The translations under genes and the position numbers were made by a program. The notes under the pieces are model-generated. The model had not been told where the DNA came from and searched no databases. It saw only the letters and a program-made list of their open reading frames with translations. A stretch of DNA of 64,000 nt from Methylobacterium sp. PvR107 (GTDB taxonomy: Bacteria > Pseudomonadota > Alphaproteobacteria > Rhizobiales > Beijerinckiaceae), in the NCBI RefSeq assembly GCF_017833295.1, contig NZ_JAFIBW010000001.1, positions 3,747,501 through 3,811,500 of the forward strand. Reading direction: 5' to 3'. This document shows, piece by piece, positions 1 to 18,828 of the stretch (positions within the stretch are counted from its first letter, which is position 1; each line of letters starts with the position of its first letter).

Positions 1-546
1 GTCGGGGACCGGATCGACGCCTATGTGGGCTGCGTCGGGACGGGCGGCTCGGTGACGGGGATCGGCCGCGGCCTCAAGGCGCACGACGCCCGGACCGTCA
101 TCGCCGCCGTCGAGCCCGAGGGCTCGATCGTGTTCGGCGGCCCCGGTCACCCGTATTACCAATCCGGCACCGGTACGCCCAAGGGCGACACGGTCGGCCT
201 CGTGCTCGATTACGGCTGCATCGATCTCGGACTGCGGGTCTCCGACGCGCAGGCCTTCGAGACGGCGCGCTACTTCGCCCGGCGCTACGGGCTGCTGGTC
301 GGCGGCTCCACCGGCGGCGCCCTCTACAAGGCGCTGGACCTCGTCGCCGAGGGGCGGATCGCCGGCAACGTTCTCGTCTCGGTCGCCGACGGCGGCGAGA
401 AGTACCTTCAGACCATCTTCAGCGACGCCTGGATGGAGTCGAAGGGTCTGCACGACCCGGCGGTCTGGGACCGCCTCGACGCCTGGCTCGGCCGTCGGGC
501 GGGTGCGGCCGCCCGGCCCGACGTGCCGCTGCTGGCGGTGGCCTGA
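1..546 (+). CDS. SbnA-like PLP-dependent synthase, C-terminal part (cut by window edge)
   Basis: The frame is open from base 1, so the N-terminus, including the PLP lysine, lies outside the window. The visible 181 residues are the C-terminal part of a cysteine-synthase-fold enzyme: the phosphate-cup motif TGGSVTGIGRGLK (near residue 15) and the late GLLVGGSTGGAL loop. In staphyloferrin B synthesis SbnA joins O-phosphoserine and glutamate into the secondary amine ACEGA. That role is inferred here because the next genes are an opine dehydrogenase, a NIS synthetase and an SbnI-like protein, not other cysteine genes. Plain cysteine synthase is the alternative. It ends 4 bases before the next start, so it is probably in the same operon. 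Confidence 0.8.
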   Translation, partial: VGDRIDAYVGCVGTGGSVTGIGRGLKAHDARTVIAAVEPEGSIVFGGPGHPYYQSGTGTPKGDTVGLVLDYGCIDLGLRVSDAQAFETARYFARRYGLLVGGSTGGALYKALDLVAEGRIAGNVLVSVADGGEKYLQTIFSDAWMESKGLHDPAVWDRLDAWLGRRAGAAARPDVPLLAVA

Positions 547-550
547 CACG

Positions 551-1693
551 ATGACCCCCCTCAACGTCGCGATCTGCGGCGGCGGCCGAACCGGCCACCT
601 CAACGCGGTGCTGTTCAGCCGCCAACCCGGCGTGCGGGTCTCCTGGCTCACATCGAATCCGGCAGTCGTCGGCGGCGCCGCGGGCGGGATCGTCGCCCAC
701 CTGCCGGACGGATCGGCCCTGCCCGGAGAGCCCGCGCAGGTGGGCACGGATCCCGCCAGCGCGGTCCGCCACGCGGACGTGGTGGTGATCACGGTGCCGG
801 CCGACGCGCGGGCCGCCGTGCTGCGGGCGATCGGCCCGCACCTGCGTCGCGACCGACCGGTCTATGTCGGCGCGATCCCGGGCTTCTGCGGGTTCGACTG
901 GCTCGCCGCGGAGATCCTGGCCAACCGACCGAACGCGGTGATCTGGGGCCTGAAGGACGTGCCGCACACCGCCTTCGACCTCGTGCCTGGCCGCAGCGTG
1001 CGGATGGGCGGCGCCAAGCAGCGGCTCCACGCCGCGACCCATCGCCGGGAGAGCCGGGAGGCCCGTGCCGAACTCGCGGCGCATCTGGGCAGCCTGTTCG
1101 AGGCGCCCGTGGAGATGCTGCAGGATTATCTCGCGATCACCCTGACCCCCGGCAACCCGATCATGCACAGCGCGGTCGTCTACGGGCTCGTCGGCCCCTA
1201 CGGCCAGTGGCGCGACCGGACGCTGCCCGAAGACTTCTGCTGGTGGACGGACTGCCCCGAGCTCGGGGCCTATTTCCTGGAGCGCTGCGACGCCGAGAAC
1301 CAGGCTTTGCGGCGCGCCGCCGCGGGGCATTTCGGGATCGATCTGTCCTCGGTGAAGCCGCTGGCGACCGAGATCATCGAGGCCTACGGCGACCAGATCG
1401 CCGACACCGCCACGATGCTCACGATCCTGCGCACGAACCGGGCCTATGCCGGCATCCGGGCGCCGCTGGTCCATGACCCGGCCGCGGGCGGCTTCGTGCT
1501 CGACCGGACGAGCCGCGCCTTCCGGGAGGACGTGGTCTACGGGCTCGGCCTCCTCGTGCAGATGGCCGCGGGCCTGTCCGTGTCCGTCCCCCACCTCGAC
1601 GAGATCCACCGCTGGGCGCTGGGCTACATGGGCGGCGTCGCGGGCGAGCCGCTCTCCCATCTGCCGCGGGCTTGGCCGGGAGCCGCGCAATGA
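551..1693 (+). CDS. NAD(P)-dependent octopine/nopaline-type opine dehydrogenase
   Basis: 380 residues from the ATG at 551, chosen over an in-frame GTG at 503 that would overlap the previous gene. The N-terminus is a Rossmann fold with the dinucleotide loop CGGGRTGH at residues 9-16. The second half is the alpha-helical opine dehydrogenase domain, with the conserved Asn-Pro/His region (GNPIMHSAVVYG) that carries the catalytic His in this family. Family enzymes interconvert an amino acid plus a keto acid with a secondary-amine opine. ACEGA, the product expected from the SbnA-like neighbour, is chemically an opine. I infer that this enzyme oxidatively cleaves it to 2,3-diaminopropionate and 2-oxoglutarate, the job SbnB does in Staphylococcus. 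Its stop overlaps the next start (ATGA). Confidence 0.85.
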   Translation: MTPLNVAICGGGRTGHLNAVLFSRQPGVRVSWLTSNPAVVGGAAGGIVAHLPDGSALPGEPAQVGTDPASAVRHADVVVITVPADARAAVLRAIGPHLRRDRPVYVGAIPGFCGFDWLAAEILANRPNAVIWGLKDVPHTAFDLVPGRSVRMGGAKQRLHAATHRRESREARAELAAHLGSLFEAPVEMLQDYLAITLTPGNPIMHSAVVYGLVGPYGQWRDRTLPEDFCWWTDCPELGAYFLERCDAENQALRRAAAGHFGIDLSSVKPLATEIIEAYGDQIADTATMLTILRTNRAYAGIRAPLVHDPAAGGFVLDRTSRAFREDVVYGLGLLVQMAAGLSVSVPHLDEIHRWALGYMGGVAGEPLSHLPRAWPGAAQ

Positions 1694-3576
1694 CCGGCCT
1701 GTCGTCCGCCGTCGCTTCCCCCGCAATCCCGGAAGACGCCACCGTGCTCGCCCATGCGCGCCGCAACGCCCTGCGCCGGCTGGTGCGCTGCCTGTTCGCC
1801 GAGAACATCCTCGACGTGACGCGCCTCGCGGTGTCGCCTGACGGACGTGAGGCGCGGTTCCCGCTTCCGGACGGCCCGGATGGCCCGGCCCATCTCCACT
1901 TCGCGCATCTGGTCGTGGCACCGGCGCGCACGATCGTCCTGCACGGTCCGATCACGCGGGTCCTGGCAAGCGGCGAACGCGAACCGGTCGCGGATCCGGA
2001 TCTGTTCCTCGACCTCGTCCGGGATCAGTTCGACTTCGCGCCAAGTCCAGAAGGGCTCGCCGGGCTGAAGGCCGACATGGCCGACAGCATCGCCAACGAC
2101 GTCGCGGCGCGCCGACACCGGCAGAGCTGGAACCGGGACCTCGCCCGCCGCATCCGCGAGGCCGGCGCGGCGGACCTCCCGGACTACCTGCGGCGGCACA
2201 GCGACGTGCGCGCGACCGCGATCCTGCTCGACCAATGGGGCGCCCTCGAAGGGCACCCGTTCTACCCCACCTGGAAGACGCGCCCCGGCCTGAGCGAGGC
2301 CGAGGTTGCCGCCCTGTCTCCGGAATTCGCCGCCCGCGTCCCCGTCCGGGTCGCAGCCCTCAGGGCCGACATGGCCCATGCCGAGACGATGCCGCACGTC
2401 ACGAGCGTCCACGCGTGGTTCGCGTCGGCCTTTCCCGAGACCTGGGAGCCTTGGCGGGCCGGTCTCGTCGCCCGTGGACTCGACGCTGCGGATTGGCTGC
2501 CCCTGCCCATCCACGCCTGGCACCTCGAAGCCTTCGTGCGCGCGCACTTCGCCGAGGCGACGGCCGAGGGAACCCTGATCCTCGACGGGCCGGACATCGA
2601 GACCGCGCCGAGCATGTCGTTCCGCACGATGATGACCGAAGGGCCGCCGGACGCGCCGTTCATCAAGCTCCCGATCGCCCTCTGGATGACGAGCGAGCAG
2701 CGCAGCCTCCAGGCCAAGTCGATCCACATGGGACCGCGCAACAGCGCCGTCATCGCGACCATTCTGGACCGCGAGCAGGGCTTTGGCGGCCGGCTGGCGA
2801 TCTATCCCGAGGAGGTCGCCTATCATTACCGCCACGCGGTCGATCGCGACGACGCGCCGGGGAAGGACCTCTCGGTGGTGTTCCGCGCGACGGCTCCCGT
2901 GTTCGCGGCCTGCGCGGGTAGCCTGCACGTGCCGGTTGCGGCCCTCTTCACCGCGCTCCCGGATACGGGGCGGCCGTTCGTAACCGCCCTGATCGGGAGC
3001 GGCGATCCGGAGGCGTTCTTCCGGGCTTATGCCCGCACGGTCGTGCAGCCCGTGTTGGCGATCTACCTCCTCTACGGGGTCGGCCTGGAGGCGCACCAGC
3101 AGAATACCAGCGTCGTCTTCGACCCAGCCGGTCGGCCGCTGCGGATCCTCGTGCGCGATTTCGGGGACGGGCGCACCTTCGCGCCGCTCCTCGAAGCGCG
3201 CGGACTGACGCTCGAGCCCTACCGGTACCCCGGCATCCTGCCGACGGTCTTCCGCGACGACATCGAGCCCGTCCGCGCCCTCGTCCTCAATGCGTGCTTC
3301 GTCTGCCACCTCCACGAACTCGCCCTGGCGCTGACCGCCGCGTACGGGCTGCCCGCCACGCGACTCTGGGAGATCCTGGGGGCGGAGACGCAGGCGGCCT
3401 TCGCGGCCGTGGCCGACCGGGTCGACCCGGCTCTCTGGTCGACCGAGCGCGACGCCTTCCTGCACGCGCCGTGGACTGCCCGCTCCCTGCTGCGCATGCA
3501 TCTCCTGCGCTACGCCGATTATCGGCTCCAGCACGCCCTGCCGAACCCCATCGATCCGGCGACCTATGGCCGCTGA
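1690..3576 (+). CDS. NIS siderophore synthetase, IucA/IucC family
   Basis: 628 residues from the ATG at 1690, which overlaps the upstream TGA; an upstream TTG at 1672 is less likely. It has the hallmarks of NRPS-independent siderophore synthetases: GHPFYPTWKTRPG (nucleotide-binding region, about residue 188), KLPIALWMTSEQR (about residue 325) and EAHQQNTSVVF (about residue 467), with the C-terminal FhuF-like region. These cytoplasmic enzymes adenylate a carboxylate such as citrate or 2-oxoglutarate and condense it with an amine or alcohol. In this locus the amine would be 2,3-diaminopropionate. Length is normal for the family. Only one synthetase is in the window; staphyloferrin-B-type pathways need more, which could lie upstream. 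Translationally coupled to both neighbours. Confidence 0.92.
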   Translation: MTGLSSAVASPAIPEDATVLAHARRNALRRLVRCLFAENILDVTRLAVSPDGREARFPLPDGPDGPAHLHFAHLVVAPARTIVLHGPITRVLASGEREPVADPDLFLDLVRDQFDFAPSPEGLAGLKADMADSIANDVAARRHRQSWNRDLARRIREAGAADLPDYLRRHSDVRATAILLDQWGALEGHPFYPTWKTRPGLSEAEVAALSPEFAARVPVRVAALRADMAHAETMPHVTSVHAWFASAFPETWEPWRAGLVARGLDAADWLPLPIHAWHLEAFVRAHFAEATAEGTLILDGPDIETAPSMSFRTMMTEGPPDAPFIKLPIALWMTSEQRSLQAKSIHMGPRNSAVIATILDREQGFGGRLAIYPEEVAYHYRHAVDRDDAPGKDLSVVFRATAPVFAACAGSLHVPVAALFTALPDTGRPFVTALIGSGDPEAFFRAYARTVVQPVLAIYLLYGVGLEAHQQNTSVVFDPAGRPLRILVRDFGDGRTFAPLLEARGLTLEPYRYPGILPTVFRDDIEPVRALVLNACFVCHLHELALALTAAYGLPATRLWEILGAETQAAFAAVADRVDPALWSTERDAFLHAPWTARSLLRMHLLRYADYRLQHALPNPIDPATYGR

Positions 3577-4744
3577 CATGTCAGGCTCGACCGGCATCGT
3601 CCGCCTGCTGTTCGCGATCCAGCTCGTCACTATGGGCGCCATGGAGATGAGCGGGCCGTTCTGGCCGCTTCGCCTCCGGGAGCTCGGCACGTCGGAGACC
3701 GTGTTCGGCCTCGCCTCCACCGGCACCTACGTCGCCCCGATGCTGGGAATCGCCTTGACCGGTAGCCTCTGGGGGCGGATGGGCGACCGCTACGGCCACA
3801 AGCTGATGATGGTCCGCGCCCTGGCGGGCTTGGCGCTCACCCAGCTTGGCCTGGCCCTCGCGGGCGATGCCTGGGTGATCGTCCTGCTCCGCTTCGTGCA
3901 GGGGGCCTGTGCCGGCTTCTCGGCGCCGGCCCAGGCCTACGGGGTCGGCCTCGTGACCGCCGAGCGCCGGGGCCGCCTGTTCGCCTTCCTGCAGGTCTCC
4001 ACCAATGTCGGCTCCCTGGGCGGCGCCGTGCTCGGCGGCGTGATCCTCGACCATGCGAGCTTCTTCTGGATCAACGCCGCCGCCTCGGGGCTGTGCGCGG
4101 CCTGCGGCCTCGCCGTACTGGCCCTCCTGCCGACCGGAACCGCGGCTCCGCGAACCGCGCGCGCCGAAGCGGCACCCGCCGCAGCCTGGCGCAATCCGGT
4201 GATCGCCAGTCTCCTGCTCGCGCAGGGCGGCCTGATCGCCAGCCGGCTCATGCCGCAGATGCCGTTCGCCCTCTACGTGCGCACGACCTTCGGGGTCGAG
4301 AACTGGGTCGTCGGCCTCTGCTACGGCCTCATGGCGGCCGGCTTCATCGCGTCCGCGGCGCTCTGGGCGCGGACCTTCGAGGGCCTCTGCCGGCCCAGGG
4401 CGCTCGCCGGCATCGCCGTCGTCGCCCTCGCCTGTGCCGCGACCGTGCTGGCCGCCGGGACCACGGCCCACGTGGCGGTCTTCGCGGCGAGCTACGGCCT
4501 CTGGGGCGTGCTCCTCGGCGCCACGACGCCGGTTCTCACCGGCCTCATCTCGCGCGAGGCGGCGGCGCATCGTCAGGGCCACATCTTGGGCGTGGTGCAG
4601 AGCACCACGCAGGTCGCCTCAATGGCCGGCGTCGCCCTCGGAGGCCTCGTCACCCAGACCGCGGGAGCCCCCGCCGTCTTCCCCCTCGTCTCCGTCCTGT
4701 ATCTCGCTTCCTGCGGCCTCCTGCTGCGGGTGCGTCAATCCTGA
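3566..4744 (+). CDS. MFS transporter, probable siderophore exporter
   Basis: 392 residues with about twelve hydrophobic segments and the MFS loop 2-3 signature around GRMGDRYGHKLMM. The ATG at 3566 overlaps the synthetase gene by 11 bases; an in-frame ATG at 3578 just after that stop is an equally possible start. Position directly behind a NIS synthetase matches SbnD/AlcS-type exporters, which move the finished carboxylate or citrate siderophore across the inner membrane. Substrate is inferred from context only. GC-rich and like its neighbours in codon use. Confidence 0.88.
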   Translation: MAADMSGSTGIVRLLFAIQLVTMGAMEMSGPFWPLRLRELGTSETVFGLASTGTYVAPMLGIALTGSLWGRMGDRYGHKLMMVRALAGLALTQLGLALAGDAWVIVLLRFVQGACAGFSAPAQAYGVGLVTAERRGRLFAFLQVSTNVGSLGGAVLGGVILDHASFFWINAAASGLCAACGLAVLALLPTGTAAPRTARAEAAPAAAWRNPVIASLLLAQGGLIASRLMPQMPFALYVRTTFGVENWVVGLCYGLMAAGFIASAALWARTFEGLCRPRALAGIAVVALACAATVLAAGTTAHVAVFAASYGLWGVLLGATTPVLTGLISREAAAHRQGHILGVVQSTTQVASMAGVALGGLVTQTAGAPAVFPLVSVLYLASCGLLLRVRQS

Positions 4745-4779
4745 AGCCGTCGCGTGCCGTCGCCGGCGTGGAACGTGCC

Positions 4780-5199
4780 ATGAGCGATTTCGACTGCGTT
4801 CATCTGCCGATCGCGGCGCTTCGTCCGACGGAGGAGATACTCCCGTCCCGCGTGCGGGAAGTCATGGCGATGATCCTGGAGGAGAACGCCTGGACCCAGC
4901 CGATCTGCATCGAACGCACCGCCCATGCGCTCCTTGATGGCCACCATCGACTCGCCGCCGCAATCGCGCTGAGGCTCGCCAAGGTCCCGGTTTACATCTT
5001 CGACTATGCGGACGTCGAATTACTGTCGTGGCGCTCGCATATCTTGCCGACACGTGGTGAGGTCATTGCCCGCGCTCGCAGCGGGCAGCTCTATCCCTAC
5101 AAAACCACGCGCCACGTCTTTCCGCCGCGTTCGACCTGCAACGTTCCTCTCGGCGAACTCAGAATGCCGATCGAACCACGGAGAGCCTTTATCGCCTGA
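4780..5199 (+). CDS. ParB/sulfiredoxin-fold protein, SbnI-like (probable serine kinase)
   Basis: 139 residues starting 35 bases after the exporter gene. It has the ParB-N/Srx fold pattern: an early LRPTEEIL segment followed by RVREVMAMILEE and a substrate-contact motif LLDGHHRLAAA around residue 52. In Staphylococcus SbnI has this fold and makes O-phosphoserine from serine and ATP, feeding SbnA. Because this gene ends a locus with an SbnA-like enzyme and a NIS synthetase, the same role is the simplest reading. It is much shorter than SbnI (about 254 residues) and lacks its C-terminal part, so any regulatory function of that part should be absent. A DNA-binding ParB role is unlikely, as no HTH domain follows. 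Confidence 0.75.
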   Translation: MSDFDCVHLPIAALRPTEEILPSRVREVMAMILEENAWTQPICIERTAHALLDGHHRLAAAIALRLAKVPVYIFDYADVELLSWRSHILPTRGEVIARARSGQLYPYKTTRHVFPPRSTCNVPLGELRMPIEPRRAFIA

Positions 5200-14974: not shown

Positions 14975-15946
14975 ATGAGCGGATACGACCTCGACGCGGG
15001 CGATGCCCCGCCGGTCCCATTGCCGGAGGCGCCACCCTCCCGGCTCGCGCGCTGGCGGGATTCCGACCTTCTGGCCAACTTCCTGCGCTCGAAAACCGCT
15101 GTGGCGGCGCTGATCGCCACGGTCCTGATGGTCGGGCTCGCCTTCGCATCGCCGTGGATCGCCCCCCAGAATCCCTACGACCCGGCCCAGCTCGATTTGA
15201 TCAACTCCAACCTGCCGCCGATCTGGCAGGCAGACGGTCAGGCGCCCTATTATCTCGGCACTGACGACCAGGGCCGGGACGTGCTCTCGGCGGTGCTGTA
15301 CGGCCTGCGCCTGTCGCTGATCGTCGGCGTGCTCGGGGTGGTGACCTCCGGCATCCTCGGCATCGCGCTCGGCCTGATCGCCGGCTACGCGGGCGGGGCC
15401 GTCGACACGCTGATCATGCGGGTCGCCGACGTGCAGCTCACCTTCCCGGCGATCCTGATCGCCCTGGTGGTGGACGGCGTCGCCAAGGCGAGCTTCGGCA
15501 GCGCGCTCGATGTCGGGCCGTTGATCGGGCTGATCGTGGTCTCGATCGGCCTGTCCTTCTGGGTGCAGTACGCCCGCACCGTCCGCTCCTCCGTGATGGT
15601 CGAGAAGGGCAAGGATTACGTCCAGGCGGCCCGGCTGATCGGCCTGTCGTCCCCGGTGATCTTGGTGCGCCACGTCCTGCCGAACGTCACCGGCCCGGTC
15701 TTCGTCATCGCGACGATCAACCTCGCGCTCGCCATCATCACCGAGGCGACCCTGTCGTTCCTCGGCACCGGCCTGCCCGAGACCATGCCGTCGCTCGGCA
15801 CGCTGATCCGCACCGGCAACCGCTTCCTGTTCTCCGGCGAGTGGTGGATCGTCGCCTTCCCGGGGCTGGCGCTCGCCGGACTGGTCATCGCCATCAACCT
15901 CTTGGGGGATTGGCTGCGCGACGCGCTCAATCCGAAGCTGCAATGA
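14975..15946 (+). CDS. peptide ABC transporter permease, DppC/OppC type
   Basis: 323 residues from the ATG at 14975. A short proline-rich N-terminus precedes the OppC_N region (LLANFLRSKTAVAAL, ASPWIAPQNPYDP) and the GTDDQGRDVLS segment typical of DppC. The EAA loop is near ARLIGLSSPVILVRHVLPN. Pairs with the upstream permease to form the channel. Unusually, 181 bases with a family-B repeat separate the two permease genes, and a family-A composite repeat separates this gene from the ATPase genes. Confidence 0.94.
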   Translation: MSGYDLDAGDAPPVPLPEAPPSRLARWRDSDLLANFLRSKTAVAALIATVLMVGLAFASPWIAPQNPYDPAQLDLINSNLPPIWQADGQAPYYLGTDDQGRDVLSAVLYGLRLSLIVGVLGVVTSGILGIALGLIAGYAGGAVDTLIMRVADVQLTFPAILIALVVDGVAKASFGSALDVGPLIGLIVVSIGLSFWVQYARTVRSSVMVEKGKDYVQAARLIGLSSPVILVRHVLPNVTGPVFVIATINLALAIITEATLSFLGTGLPETMPSLGTLIRTGNRFLFSGEWWIVAFPGLALAGLVIAINLLGDWLRDALNPKLQ

Positions 15947-15982
15947 TGGTGGATGTGATCGAGTCCTGGACGATCACCGCCG

Positions 15983-16160
15983 CCTCTCCCTCCCTCCTCT
16001 GCGGGGGAGGGCGGCCCCCGAAGGGGGTCGAGAGAGGGCACCCCGGCTTCCGGAATTGGCGCGGCCTTCATGACGGCCGGTGTGTCATCCTGCGCCGTCG
16101 CTCCCTTCTCCCGACCCCTGCTGACACAGGGGCCACCCTCCCCCGCAGAGGGGAGAGGGC
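15983..16160. repeat. composite palindromic repeat family A, copy 1 (about 178 bp)
   Basis: Two arms in inverted orientation: CCTCTGCGGGGGAGGGCGGC on the left, and CCACCCTCCCCCGCAGAGGG on the right. They enclose a conserved middle with ACCCCGGCTTCCGGAA and CTCCCTTCTCCCGACCCC. The same layout recurs at 30191 and 52936. Located inside the peptide-transporter operon between permease and ATPase genes, so it should be transcribed and could fold into a long hairpin. Confidence 0.75.
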
Positions 16161-16184
16161 GGGCGCGTGGCAGGACCGGACAGC

Positions 16185-17165
16185 ATGACCGACACCATCC
16201 TCTCCGTGCGCGACCTGACGGTCGCCTTCGACACCCGCCGCGGGCCGCTCACCGCCATCGACCGGGTCTCCTTCGACATCGGCCGCGGCGAGATCCTGGG
16301 CGTCGTCGGCGAGTCCGGGGCCGGCAAGTCGGTGACCGGCTCGGCGGTGATCGGGCTGATCGACCGGCCCGGCCGGATCGCCGGCGGCGAGATCCTCTTG
16401 CGCGGCGCGCGCATCGACAACCTTTCCCCCGAGGCGATGCGGCGGGTGCGGGGCAGGCGCATCGGCATGATCTTCCAGGATCCGCTGACCTCCCTCGACC
16501 CGCTGTTCCGCGTGGGCGACCAGATCGTCGAGACCCTGCGCACCCACACCGACCTGTCGGCGAAGGCCGCCCGCACCCGCGCCATCGATCTGCTGGCCGA
16601 GGTCGGCATCCCGGCGCCCGAGCGGCGGATCGACGGCTACCCGCACGAATTCTCCGGCGGCATGCGCCAGCGGGTGGTGATCGCGCTCGCGCTCGCCGCC
16701 GAGCCGGAGCTGATCATCGCCGACGAGCCGACCACGGCGCTCGACGTCTCGGTCCAGGCCCAGATCATCACGCTACTGAAGCGCCTGTGCCGCGAGCACG
16801 GCACCGCGGTGATGCTGGTAACCCACGACATGGGCGTCATCGCCGAGGCCGCCGACCGGGTGGCGGTCATGTATGCCGGGCGGGTCGCCGAGATCGGCCC
16901 GGTCGCCTCGGTGATCGCCAAGCCGCACCACCCCTACGCGGTCGGCCTGATGGGGGCGATCCCGACCCTGTCGCAGGAGGCCAACCGGCTCAGCCAGATT
17001 CCCGGCTCGATGCCCCGGCTCACCGCCATCCCGCAGGGCTGCGCCTTCAACCCGCGCTGCCCGAAGGTGTTTTCACGATGCCGGGTCGAGCGGCCGGAGC
17101 CGATCCCGGTCGATGCGAGCCGGGTCGCCTGTCACCTGTACGATGCAGCGGAGCAAGCGGCGTGA
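16185..17165 (+). CDS. peptide ABC transporter ATP-binding protein, DppD/OppD type
   Basis: 326 residues from the ATG at 16185; a GTG six codons upstream lies against the repeat. Walker A GESGAGKSVTG (about residue 42), signature FSGGMRQRVVIALAL, Walker B LIIADEPTTALD, then the H-loop VTHDMGVIAE. The C-terminal oligopeptide extension has the Cys-containing GCAFNPRCPKVFSRC motif, often an Fe-S site in DppD/OppD. Stop overlaps the next start (GTGA). Confidence 0.95.
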   Translation: MTDTILSVRDLTVAFDTRRGPLTAIDRVSFDIGRGEILGVVGESGAGKSVTGSAVIGLIDRPGRIAGGEILLRGARIDNLSPEAMRRVRGRRIGMIFQDPLTSLDPLFRVGDQIVETLRTHTDLSAKAARTRAIDLLAEVGIPAPERRIDGYPHEFSGGMRQRVVIALALAAEPELIIADEPTTALDVSVQAQIITLLKRLCREHGTAVMLVTHDMGVIAEAADRVAVMYAGRVAEIGPVASVIAKPHHPYAVGLMGAIPTLSQEANRLSQIPGSMPRLTAIPQGCAFNPRCPKVFSRCRVERPEPIPVDASRVACHLYDAAEQAA

Positions 17166-18142
17166 GCGCCTACGTCGAAGTCACCGACCTGCGCCGCCGG
17201 TTCGATGTCTCGAAACCCTGGCTCAACCGGGTGATCGAGCGCGAGCCCCGGAAATTCCTCACCGCGGTGGACCGGGTCGGCTTCACGATCGAGAAGGGCG
17301 AGACCTTCGCGATCGTCGGCGAATCCGGCTCCGGCAAATCGACGGTGGCGCGGATGGTGGTCGGCCTGCTGCCGCCGAGCGCTGGCGAGGTGACGATCAC
17401 CGGCGTCTCGATGACCGATCCGCGCCAGGCTGCCGCCCGGCGACGCCTGCGGGCGCGCATCCAGATGATCTTCCAGGACCCCTACGCGTCCATGAACCCG
17501 CGCTGGCGGGTGGGGAAGATCATCGCCGAGCCGATCCGGGCCTTCAACCTGATCCACGGCGAGGGGGCGATCCGCGCCCGGGTCAGCGAGCTGCTCGGCC
17601 TCGTCGGGCTCCACCCGGACGACGCGCGAAAATACCCGCACGAATTTTCCGGCGGCCAGCGCCAGCGGGTGGCGATCGCGCGGGCGCTGGCGAGCCAGGC
17701 GGAGTTCCTGGTGGGCGACGAGCCGACCTCGGCGCTCGACGTCTCGGTGCAGGCGCAGATCCTCAACCTGATGCGCGACCTGCAGGACCGGCTCGGCCTC
17801 ACCTACCTGTTCATCTCCCACAACCTGGCCGTGGTCCGCCACATGGCGACCCGGGTGGGGGTGATGTATCTCGGCCGCCTCGTGGAGGTCGCCGCCGCCA
17901 AGGACCTTTTCGCCAGGCCCCGCCATCCCTACACGCGGATGCTCCTCGACGCGGTGCCCGACCTCGCCCATGTCGGCCGCGCCCGGGTGCCGGTCTCCGG
18001 CGAGATCCCGAACCCGATCGACCCGCCGCCCGGCTGCACCTTCAACCCGCGCTGCCCGCTGGCGAACGACCGCTGCCGCGCCGAGGTCCCGGCGCTCCGC
18101 GACGGCGTCGCCTGCCACGCCGTGCAGGAGGGGCGGGCCTGA
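17162..18142 (+). CDS. peptide ABC transporter ATP-binding protein, DppF/OppF type
   Basis: 326 residues from GTG at 17162, overlapping the DppD-like stop. Walker A GESGSGKSTVARM, signature EFSGGQRQRVAIARAL, Walker B FLVGDEPTSALD, and the C-terminal PPGCTFNPRCPLANDRC motif. Forms the ATPase heterodimer with its neighbour. Last gene of the transporter operon. A weak GGGTC/GACCC hairpin (18143-18159) follows the stop without a clear T-run. Confidence 0.95.
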   Translation: MSAYVEVTDLRRRFDVSKPWLNRVIEREPRKFLTAVDRVGFTIEKGETFAIVGESGSGKSTVARMVVGLLPPSAGEVTITGVSMTDPRQAAARRRLRARIQMIFQDPYASMNPRWRVGKIIAEPIRAFNLIHGEGAIRARVSELLGLVGLHPDDARKYPHEFSGGQRQRVAIARALASQAEFLVGDEPTSALDVSVQAQILNLMRDLQDRLGLTYLFISHNLAVVRHMATRVGVMYLGRLVEVAAAKDLFARPRHPYTRMLLDAVPDLAHVGRARVPVSGEIPNPIDPPPGCTFNPRCPLANDRCRAEVPALRDGVACHAVQEGRA

Positions 18143-18390
18143 GGGTCGGGCACGGACCCGTTCCGGTGCGCGCGCTCGCTGATGCGAGGGCGCGATCGCT
18201 CGAACAGGCGTGAACGCTTCGGCATACACCGGCGCGGCCGGCGCAACATGCAGCCTCCGCTGGACGAGGCTGGAGGGCGTACCGCACGAATCTCGGCCGG
18301 CCCGGCGACGCCTGCCCGGCGCCCGGGAGACGCCGGCGGTCAGGCGGAGCTGACCGTCGGCGCGAAGCCCGGTTTCGCGGTCTTGACCGA

Positions 18391-18828
18391 TCAGATCTCG
18401 AACCCGGTCAGACCGTGACCATGATGCGTCTCGAGACCATGAGCATTGGCCGCGAGAGAAGGGTCGAGCGAGCCTGTGCTCGTGGTCCCGGTCTGCTCCG
18501 CATGGGGCTGTGTCGCACCCTCCTGTGTCGCTGATGCGGTGAGCACCTGCGTTGTCGGTGACGAGGCCGATCCCCGCACGGTGACGGTGACGCTCTGCTG
18601 GGCTGTGCCGCCGTGGCCGTCATCGACGGTGACGGTGAAGCGCTCGACCCGGGTCTGGCCCTGCTCGAGGGTTGCGACCGCGCTGTGGTCGACGCTGTAA
18701 TCCCACGCGATGGTGCCGGAGCCGGTGCTGGATCCGGGCTCCTTGGCGATCCGGGCGGCGAGGCGGCCGACCGTGCCGTCGGCGGGGGTGACCGTGGTCG
18801 GCAAGGATCTGAGCGAGATCCGCGGCAA
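18391..18828 (-). pseudogene. VCBS-repeat type I secreted protein, C-terminal remnant
   Basis: The frame encodes the end of a VCBS/cadherin-like adhesin: GTIAWDYSVDHSAVATL and RVERFTVTVDDGHGGTAQQS make one VCBS repeat, followed by a Thr/Ser-rich linker and the terminus HGHGLTGFEI. No signal or start region exists; such proteins are usually many hundreds of residues long. Similarity stops near 18800, exactly where a 5'-truncated HlyD gene begins on the other strand. The last residues match the end of the 19737 protein (LTGFEF), suggesting a common secretion signal. Reads as a broken gene, although a short product cannot be excluded. Confidence 0.65.

Follow-up and report, generated by a model that had tools for sequence, protein, structure and literature searches.

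The 64,000-nucleotide stretch of the Methylobacterium sp. PvR107 genome analysed here (G000:C1:3747501-3811500, within 6.36 Mb; hereafter, the window) opens inside an operon that encodes an opine dehydrogenase (ODH) and a nonribosomal peptide synthetase-independent siderophore (NIS) synthetase. We consider it likely that its product is a siderophore of the rhizobactin type, in whose synthesis the ODH runs forward. This proposal is carried by the gene content of the operon, by the conservation of that gene set, and by Pseudomonas sp. FEN, a proven rhizobactin producer in which the same operon is the sole NIS locus found. An earlier reading of the sequence alone had preferred an ODH that runs backwards as a non-homologous substitute for SbnB, and had offered a true opine metallophore, formed by forward reductive condensation, as its alternative; the evidence below favors the alternative.

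Gene content of the operon

The operon is cut by the start of the window, and two of its genes, those for a TonB receptor and a pyridoxal phosphate (PLP)-dependent decarboxylase, lie upstream in L005, the fetched stretch that covers the upstream flank and the first genes of the window (window position equals L005 position minus 14000). The genes are as follows.

L005:9805-12117, + strand, TonB receptor, upstream of the window
L005:12114-13493, + strand, PLP decarboxylase of the ornithine/diaminopimelate type, upstream of the window
1-546 (3' part; full gene L005:13503-14546), + strand, SbnA/CysK-fold PLP enzyme, Y4xP family (PF00291, 218.6 bits)
551-1693 (L005:14551-15693), + strand, ODH, Y4xO family (PF02317, 87.7 bits)
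About 1690-3576 (L005 about 15690-17576), + strand, NIS synthetase (IucA/IucC plus FhuF), Y4xN/PbtA family (PF04183, 161.7 bits; PF06276, 120.2 bits)
About 3566-4744 (L005 about 17566-18744), + strand, major facilitator superfamily (MFS) exporter, Y4xM family (PF07690, 147.2 bits)
4780-5199 (L005:18780-19199), + strand, SerK/SbnI-like ParB-fold protein (NF053625 SerK, 54.5 bits, below the cut-off of 380)

All genes of 1-5199 are on the + strand and abut or overlap, with the single exception of 35 bases before the SerK/SbnI-like gene. The NIS start ATG at 1690 overlaps the ODH stop, the MFS gene has a second, inner ATG at 3578, and the SbnA/CysK-fold gene starts 498 bases 5' of window position 1. 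The sequence-only reading, which had described an SbnA-like enzyme, an ODH, an NIS synthetase, an MFS exporter, and an SbnI-like protein as one tightly packed unit, called these genes correctly and missed only the two outside the window. The upstream extension that it had proposed yielded the decarboxylase and the TonB receptor but no further NIS gene, and the operon's NIS gene is the one match to PF04183 (IucA/IucC) in the whole genome.

The ODH belongs to PF02317, at 87.7 bits against a gathering score of 30, and matches the scallop octopine dehydrogenase 3c7a (E = 2.4e-25). H212, R324, and D329 of 3c7a, which we take to have catalytic roles, including that of a His/Asp pair, align to H206, R322, and D327 of the window ODH, and each of the three is conserved in 95% or more of the 81 rows of the family. 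The direction in which the enzyme runs is not readable from its sequence. The best solved homologue of the NIS synthetase is AsbB (E = 2.2e-23). The SerK/SbnI-like protein, for which a Pfam search gave no match, is probably of the Y4yB family, judging by its place in the cluster, and its E18, D53-G54-x-H56-R57, and KTTRH are each conserved in at least 95% of 75 rows.

Since an ODH at E<=1e-60 occurs in only 1 of 99 genomes of the window's own family, namely the window's own genome, the operon looks accessory there; its closest named relative here is in Methylobacterium variabile (ODH 81% identical). A serine-recombinase-like gene (L005:1751-3322, family assigned by eye), approximately 6.5 kb upstream of the operon, would fit an accessory island.

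Conservation of the gene set

An alignment of 18 ODHs led to 94 relatives in genomes of named species, 80 of which were kept as loci; because these all lie near the query, the counts of co-occurrence below describe a close family. When gene presence was scored with cut-offs of our own choosing, ODH and NIS genes were found in all 80 loci, the decarboxylase, SbnA-like, and MFS genes in 79 each, the SerK-like gene in 74, and the TonB receptor in 73. All five core genes (decarboxylase, SbnA-like, ODH, NIS, and MFS) occur together in 78 of the 80, the remaining two (L086 and L020) being cut by contig ends; the one locus without a decarboxylase is cut in this way. Chance would not account for this association. 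Among the host taxa are Pseudomonas, rhizobia, Bradyrhizobium, Burkholderiales, Thalassospira, and Pectobacterium. For 50 of the loci, the genome was checked for PF04183 and SbnB, and 42 of the 50 genomes have exactly one PF04183 match.

With an Ensifer query, ODH matches at E<=1e-60 were present in 43 plasmid records, 22 of them from Sinorhizobium, including S. meliloti, a count that includes two Proteus records of chromosome size and apparently an outgroup ODH. Gene content was examined on four of these records besides the outgroup, and an accessory plasmid of S. meliloti USDA1021 carries SerK-like, decarboxylase, SbnA-like, ODH, NIS, MFS, binding protein, and receptor genes. The near outgroup, an ODH of 41% identity on a Rhizobium sp. 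007 plasmid (L105:2930-15134), stands in an unrelated cluster with two aminotransferases, a methyltransferase, a methylaspartate ammonia-lyase, and an MFS protein, perhaps for another opine-like product.

The operon in a rhizobactin producer

Pseudomonas sp. FEN (L040) carries the complete gene set, with its ODH at L040:10004-11152. High-resolution mass spectrometry and nuclear magnetic resonance have shown that two siderophores, rhizobactin (C15H27N3O8) and rhizobactin B (C16H29N3O8), are produced by this strain; rhizobactin, discovered in Rhizobium meliloti, consists of ethylenediamine, alanine, lysine, and malic acid, and rhizobactin B has citramalate in place of the malate (PMC7676072; this and the other papers are cited from excerpts). 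In the structure of rhizobactin, the alanine-derived secondary amine is an opine bond, and free diaminopropionate is absent. The original work reportedly used R. meliloti strain DM4, and the species matches, in that the operon is found on one S. meliloti plasmid and its ODH on further ones.

The FEN draft genome contains one PF04183 match, and this match is inside the operon. Rhizobactin 1021 requires two IucA/C genes, rhbC and rhbF, and the genes for that compound were rejected as the source of FEN's product because only the one match was found. Identities between the window and FEN proteins are 54% for the decarboxylase, 73% for the SbnA-like enzyme, 59% for the ODH, 58% for the NIS synthetase, and 55% for the MFS protein.

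Proposed pathway

The gene set would explain rhizobactin; the operon offers a candidate enzyme for every bond. Each reaction, the order of the reactions, and a window product of FEN's kind are predicted from gene content. The SerK-like protein, a proposed serine kinase, would make O-phosphoserine, and the SbnA-fold enzyme would then swap the phosphate for the alpha-amine of lysine, keeping the C-N bond so that diaminopropionate is not released. Removal of the serine-derived carboxylate by the decarboxylase would give N2-(2-aminoethyl)lysine, and with it the ethylenediamine unit. The ODH would join the new primary amine to pyruvate by an NAD(P)H-dependent reductive condensation, giving the carboxyethyl (alanine) end, and the single NIS synthetase would amidate lysine N6, with malate for rhizobactin and with citramalate for rhizobactin B. 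The MFS protein is predicted to export the siderophore and the TonB receptor to recover its iron complex. We lean toward this lysine-first order, though with less confidence than toward the type of product.

Malate or citramalate

The FEN operon is flanked by a CitE-like gene nearest RipC, an itaconate-pathway C-C lyase (160.8 bits, below the cut-off of 375). We presume this gene to encode a citramalyl-CoA lyase and to be a possible source of citramalate, and it fits the citramalate of rhizobactin B. A class V aminotransferase gene, an extracytoplasmic function (ECF) sigma factor gene, and a FecR-like gene (identified by eye) also lie near the FEN operon. In contrast, L005 of the window has no match for either the CitE-like gene or the class V aminotransferase. 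CitE-like genes are present in 30 of the 80 loci (21 Pseudomonas, 7 Pectobacterium, one Samsonia, and one Bosea) and, within the fetched flanks, in no rhizobial locus. A neighbor of the MFS gene in 21 of the 80 loci is the class V aminotransferase/cysteine-desulfurase-like gene; these loci comprise 19 from Pseudomonas, including FEN (L040:14407-15510), a Paraburkholderia, and an uncultured Ralstonia, and the gene was also seen on a Serratia plasmid (L102).

A quick tree of the NIS synthetases was built from 80 of 81 rows, one short row having been dropped, and hence includes 29 of the 30 CitE loci. In this tree, where 25 of 77 inner branches are poorly supported and the rows of the window and of L008 are odd in letter make-up, the CitE label (29 of 80 rows) needs 2 changes, compared to a mean of 24.1 when shuffled. 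Because shared ancestry alone would cluster the label, the pattern amounts to consistency rather than proof.

The window and M. variabile NIS synthetases share a long branch of their own (0.50) beside the CitE clade. This branch, as placed in the quick tree, and the identities of 59% for the ODH and 58% for the NIS synthetase with those of FEN would suit a different product, i.e., a related amino-polycarboxylate built by the same core chemistry with another acyl group or amino acid, an account that partly overlaps with our own. Against such a departure stand the full five-gene core that 78 of the 80 loci keep and the many columns that at least 95% of rows share, the window included, and we regard it as rather unlikely.

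Polarity of the pathway and direction of the opine dehydrogenase

The same enzymes could reach the same end molecule with the other polarity, a variant within the proposed rhizobactin-type scheme in which alanine would receive the serine unit from the SbnA-fold enzyme and, after decarboxylation, the ODH would join the resulting amine to lysine's 2-oxo acid. No sequence result fixes the amine acceptor. However, this polarity would need an additional lysine oxo acid and the right isomer of alanine, whereas lysine and pyruvate are presumably abundant, and we consider it unlikely.

The reversed direction concerns SbnB and the identity of the SbnA-fold enzyme. In that account, the ODH would oxidize SbnA-made N-(1-amino-1-carboxyl-2-ethyl)glutamic acid (ACEGA) to diaminopropionate and 2-oxoglutarate, the decarboxylase would yield ethylenediamine, and the NIS synthetase would build a citrate siderophore like staphyloferrin or rhizoferrin. 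The premise of the sequence-only reading, an SbnA-like enzyme and an ODH with SbnB absent, was right: the best genome match to SbnB (TIGR03944) scores 98.5 bits against a cut-off of 326.9, and none passes. In the related loci, the SbnA-like enzyme is present in 79 of 80; SbnB passes the cut-off in 2 of the 50 related genomes checked, in each on a contig other than that of the NIS gene. The presence of SbnA-fold and SerK/SbnI-like proteins, the absence of SbnB by cut-off, the rarity and off-contig position of SbnB in the related genomes, and the best models of the NIS and MFS proteins, those of the rhizoferrin proteins FslA and FslB (both under cut-off), would all suit a reversed ODH.

The label "SbnA-like", in contrast, holds for the fold but not for the curated family. 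The enzyme scores 227.9 bits against TIGR03945 (SbnA), short of the cut-off of 349.95, level with its score for the cystathionine beta-synthase model (228.5 bits) and near that for cysteine synthase A (222.5 bits); FEN's enzyme scores 227.5 bits and is likewise under the cut-off, which is passed in 3 of 289 genomes of the class. The three SbnAs over the cut-off carry the motifs SSGNLG and NQY, in place of which five aligned cluster enzymes have SSGNTG and NQS; S147 and T72 are each kept in 95% or more of the 80 rows. In S. aureus SbnA, Tyr152, Arg132, and Ser185 have been named as the residues that select O-phosphoserine (PMC12414870), a numbering that we transferred by motif via the unnamed over-cut-off SbnAs rather than via the S. 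aureus sequence. The changes from NQY to NQS and from SSGNLG to SSGNTG argue for a different reaction partner or pocket, although they do not name the partner.

Opine dehydrogenases favor the reductive direction. Moreover, the alanine-derived secondary amine of the FEN product requires an opine-forming step, which no other gene of the set offers. Given the SbnA score below the cut-off, the changed motifs, the companion decarboxylase, and the production of rhizobactin by FEN with the same operon, a reversed ODH is very improbable.

Evidence that weighs against a rhizobactin-type product

Several observations count against the proposal that the window operon makes a rhizobactin-type siderophore. 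The gene-product link comes from one producer strain with a draft genome and should be read as provisional; the authors who described FEN suggested rhbAB-like genes for its rhizobactin (PMC7676072), and the amide in FEN could be formed by a non-NIS ligase. The window proteins are 37-73% identical to those of FEN, and both the NIS synthetase (FslA, 250 bits, below the cut-off of 1000) and the MFS protein (FslB rhizoferrin exporter, 139.6 bits, below the cut-off of 600) have rhizoferrin proteins as their best NCBIfam models. Upstream of the receptor, no convincing iron-regulator box was found; one Irr-like site, at L005:9763, has 4 mismatches, and no other site across 20 kb matches as well. For the homologous y4x genes of Sinorhizobium fredii, a 2006 paper states, by its title, that Y4xP encodes a cysteine synthase (cited in PMC3973906); if cysteine synthesis is the main role of Y4xP, the proposed first step is wrong, although it may be a side activity. 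The excerpts on mutants, in which siderophores are not mentioned, report that loss of y4xP raised nodulation by USDA191 (PMC3973906) and, in one table, that y4yA, y4yB, and y4xP mutants of USDA257 had no nodulation effect (PMC4881576). Lastly, the window NIS synthetase falls in the CitE-bearing clade (95% by the Shimodaira-Hasegawa-like approximate likelihood ratio test) though its operon lacks the CitE-like gene. The best CitE-like match of its own genome, at G000:C1:3716333-3717199, some 26 kb before the operon's start, is a weak one (95 bits, 36%), so that either malate or citramalate may be the acyl group of the window's product.

Comparison with known systems

The window resembles the staphyloferrin B (sbn) locus in its SbnA-fold enzyme, SbnI/SerK-like protein, decarboxylase of the SbnH kind, NIS synthetase, and MFS protein, but differs in the absence of SbnB, in the SbnA score and active-site motifs, and in its one NIS gene; the staphyloferrin B locus has three NIS synthetases, SbnC, E, and F. 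With the opine zincophores staphylopine and pseudopaline (cnt), it shares an ODH that would join an oxo acid into a secondary amine. The window ODH is, however, of PF02317, and a cnt-type zincophore was rejected since none of the 7 operon proteins matched nicotianamine synthase, for which the rest of the genome was not searched.

The cluster type is already in print, as proteobactin and as the y4x genes. Among the matches listed from open-licence PubMed Central papers, we found no link between the cluster and rhizobactin, no stated role for the ODH, no paper with both "proteobactin" and "rhizobactin", and no assignment of rhizobactin genes save the rhbAB suggestion for FEN. The S. meliloti "rhizobactin" cluster of PMC12815270 cites the genes of rhizobactin 1021, a different, hydroxamate compound, and the excerpts of PMC7438024, on opine zincophores, contain no mention of rhizobactin, IucA, SbnA, or cysteine synthase.

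The proteobactin operon of Proteus mirabilis, pbtA-I, encodes the same enzymes as the window (NIS synthetase, TonB receptor, decarboxylase, PLP enzyme, ODH, and MFS protein) plus the citrate-lyase-like PbtI. It is iron-repressed, and its genes are needed for detectable iron chelation only jointly with nrp; PbtA has been grouped with Y4xN, oxaloacetate has been suggested as the NIS substrate, and the review passages give no structure for proteobactin (PMC11026637). One P. mirabilis record contains all seven operon genes, with identities to the window of 49% for the ODH, 49% for the NIS synthetase, and 70% for the SbnA-like enzyme. It differs from the window in its CitE-like gene and in having the NIS gene before the receptor. 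By the joint presence of decarboxylase, SbnA-fold, ODH, NIS, and MFS genes, the window is of the same cluster type; the CitE-like neighbor that marks the pbt branch is not in its L005.

The same set is found on pNGR234a of S. fredii NGR234 (L103:6192-13237) as y4yB-y4yA-y4xP-y4xO-y4xN-y4xM, with the SerK-like gene first. Unlike the window operon, it is embedded in a type III secretion region, with nopX on one side and nopL on the other, and no TonB receptor match was found within the fetched 19 kb. The role of y4yB-y4xM "remains enigmatic" (PMC3973906), and these genes are strongly induced by the flavonoid apigenin (PMC10970691).

It is an evenly balanced possibility that one logic, in which a C-N-keeping SbnA-fold enzyme joins O-phosphoserine to lysine, followed by decarboxylation, a forward ODH, and one NIS acylation, lies behind rhizobactin, proteobactin, and the S. 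fredii y4x genes. The CitE-like gene would then set citramalate over malate, so that proteobactin would be identical, or almost identical, to rhizobactin B, and in some rhizobia a type III secretion island would encode flavonoid-controlled rhizobactin synthesis. If so, a single pathway would supply the genes of rhizobactin, the structure of proteobactin, and the purpose of the enigmatic y4x genes, Y4xP would make cysteine as a secondary activity and not as its main task, and the rhbAB attribution for FEN would be in doubt. Such a pathway would add a route combining opine and NIS chemistry, and the operon would offer genes for a siderophore of the 1980s.

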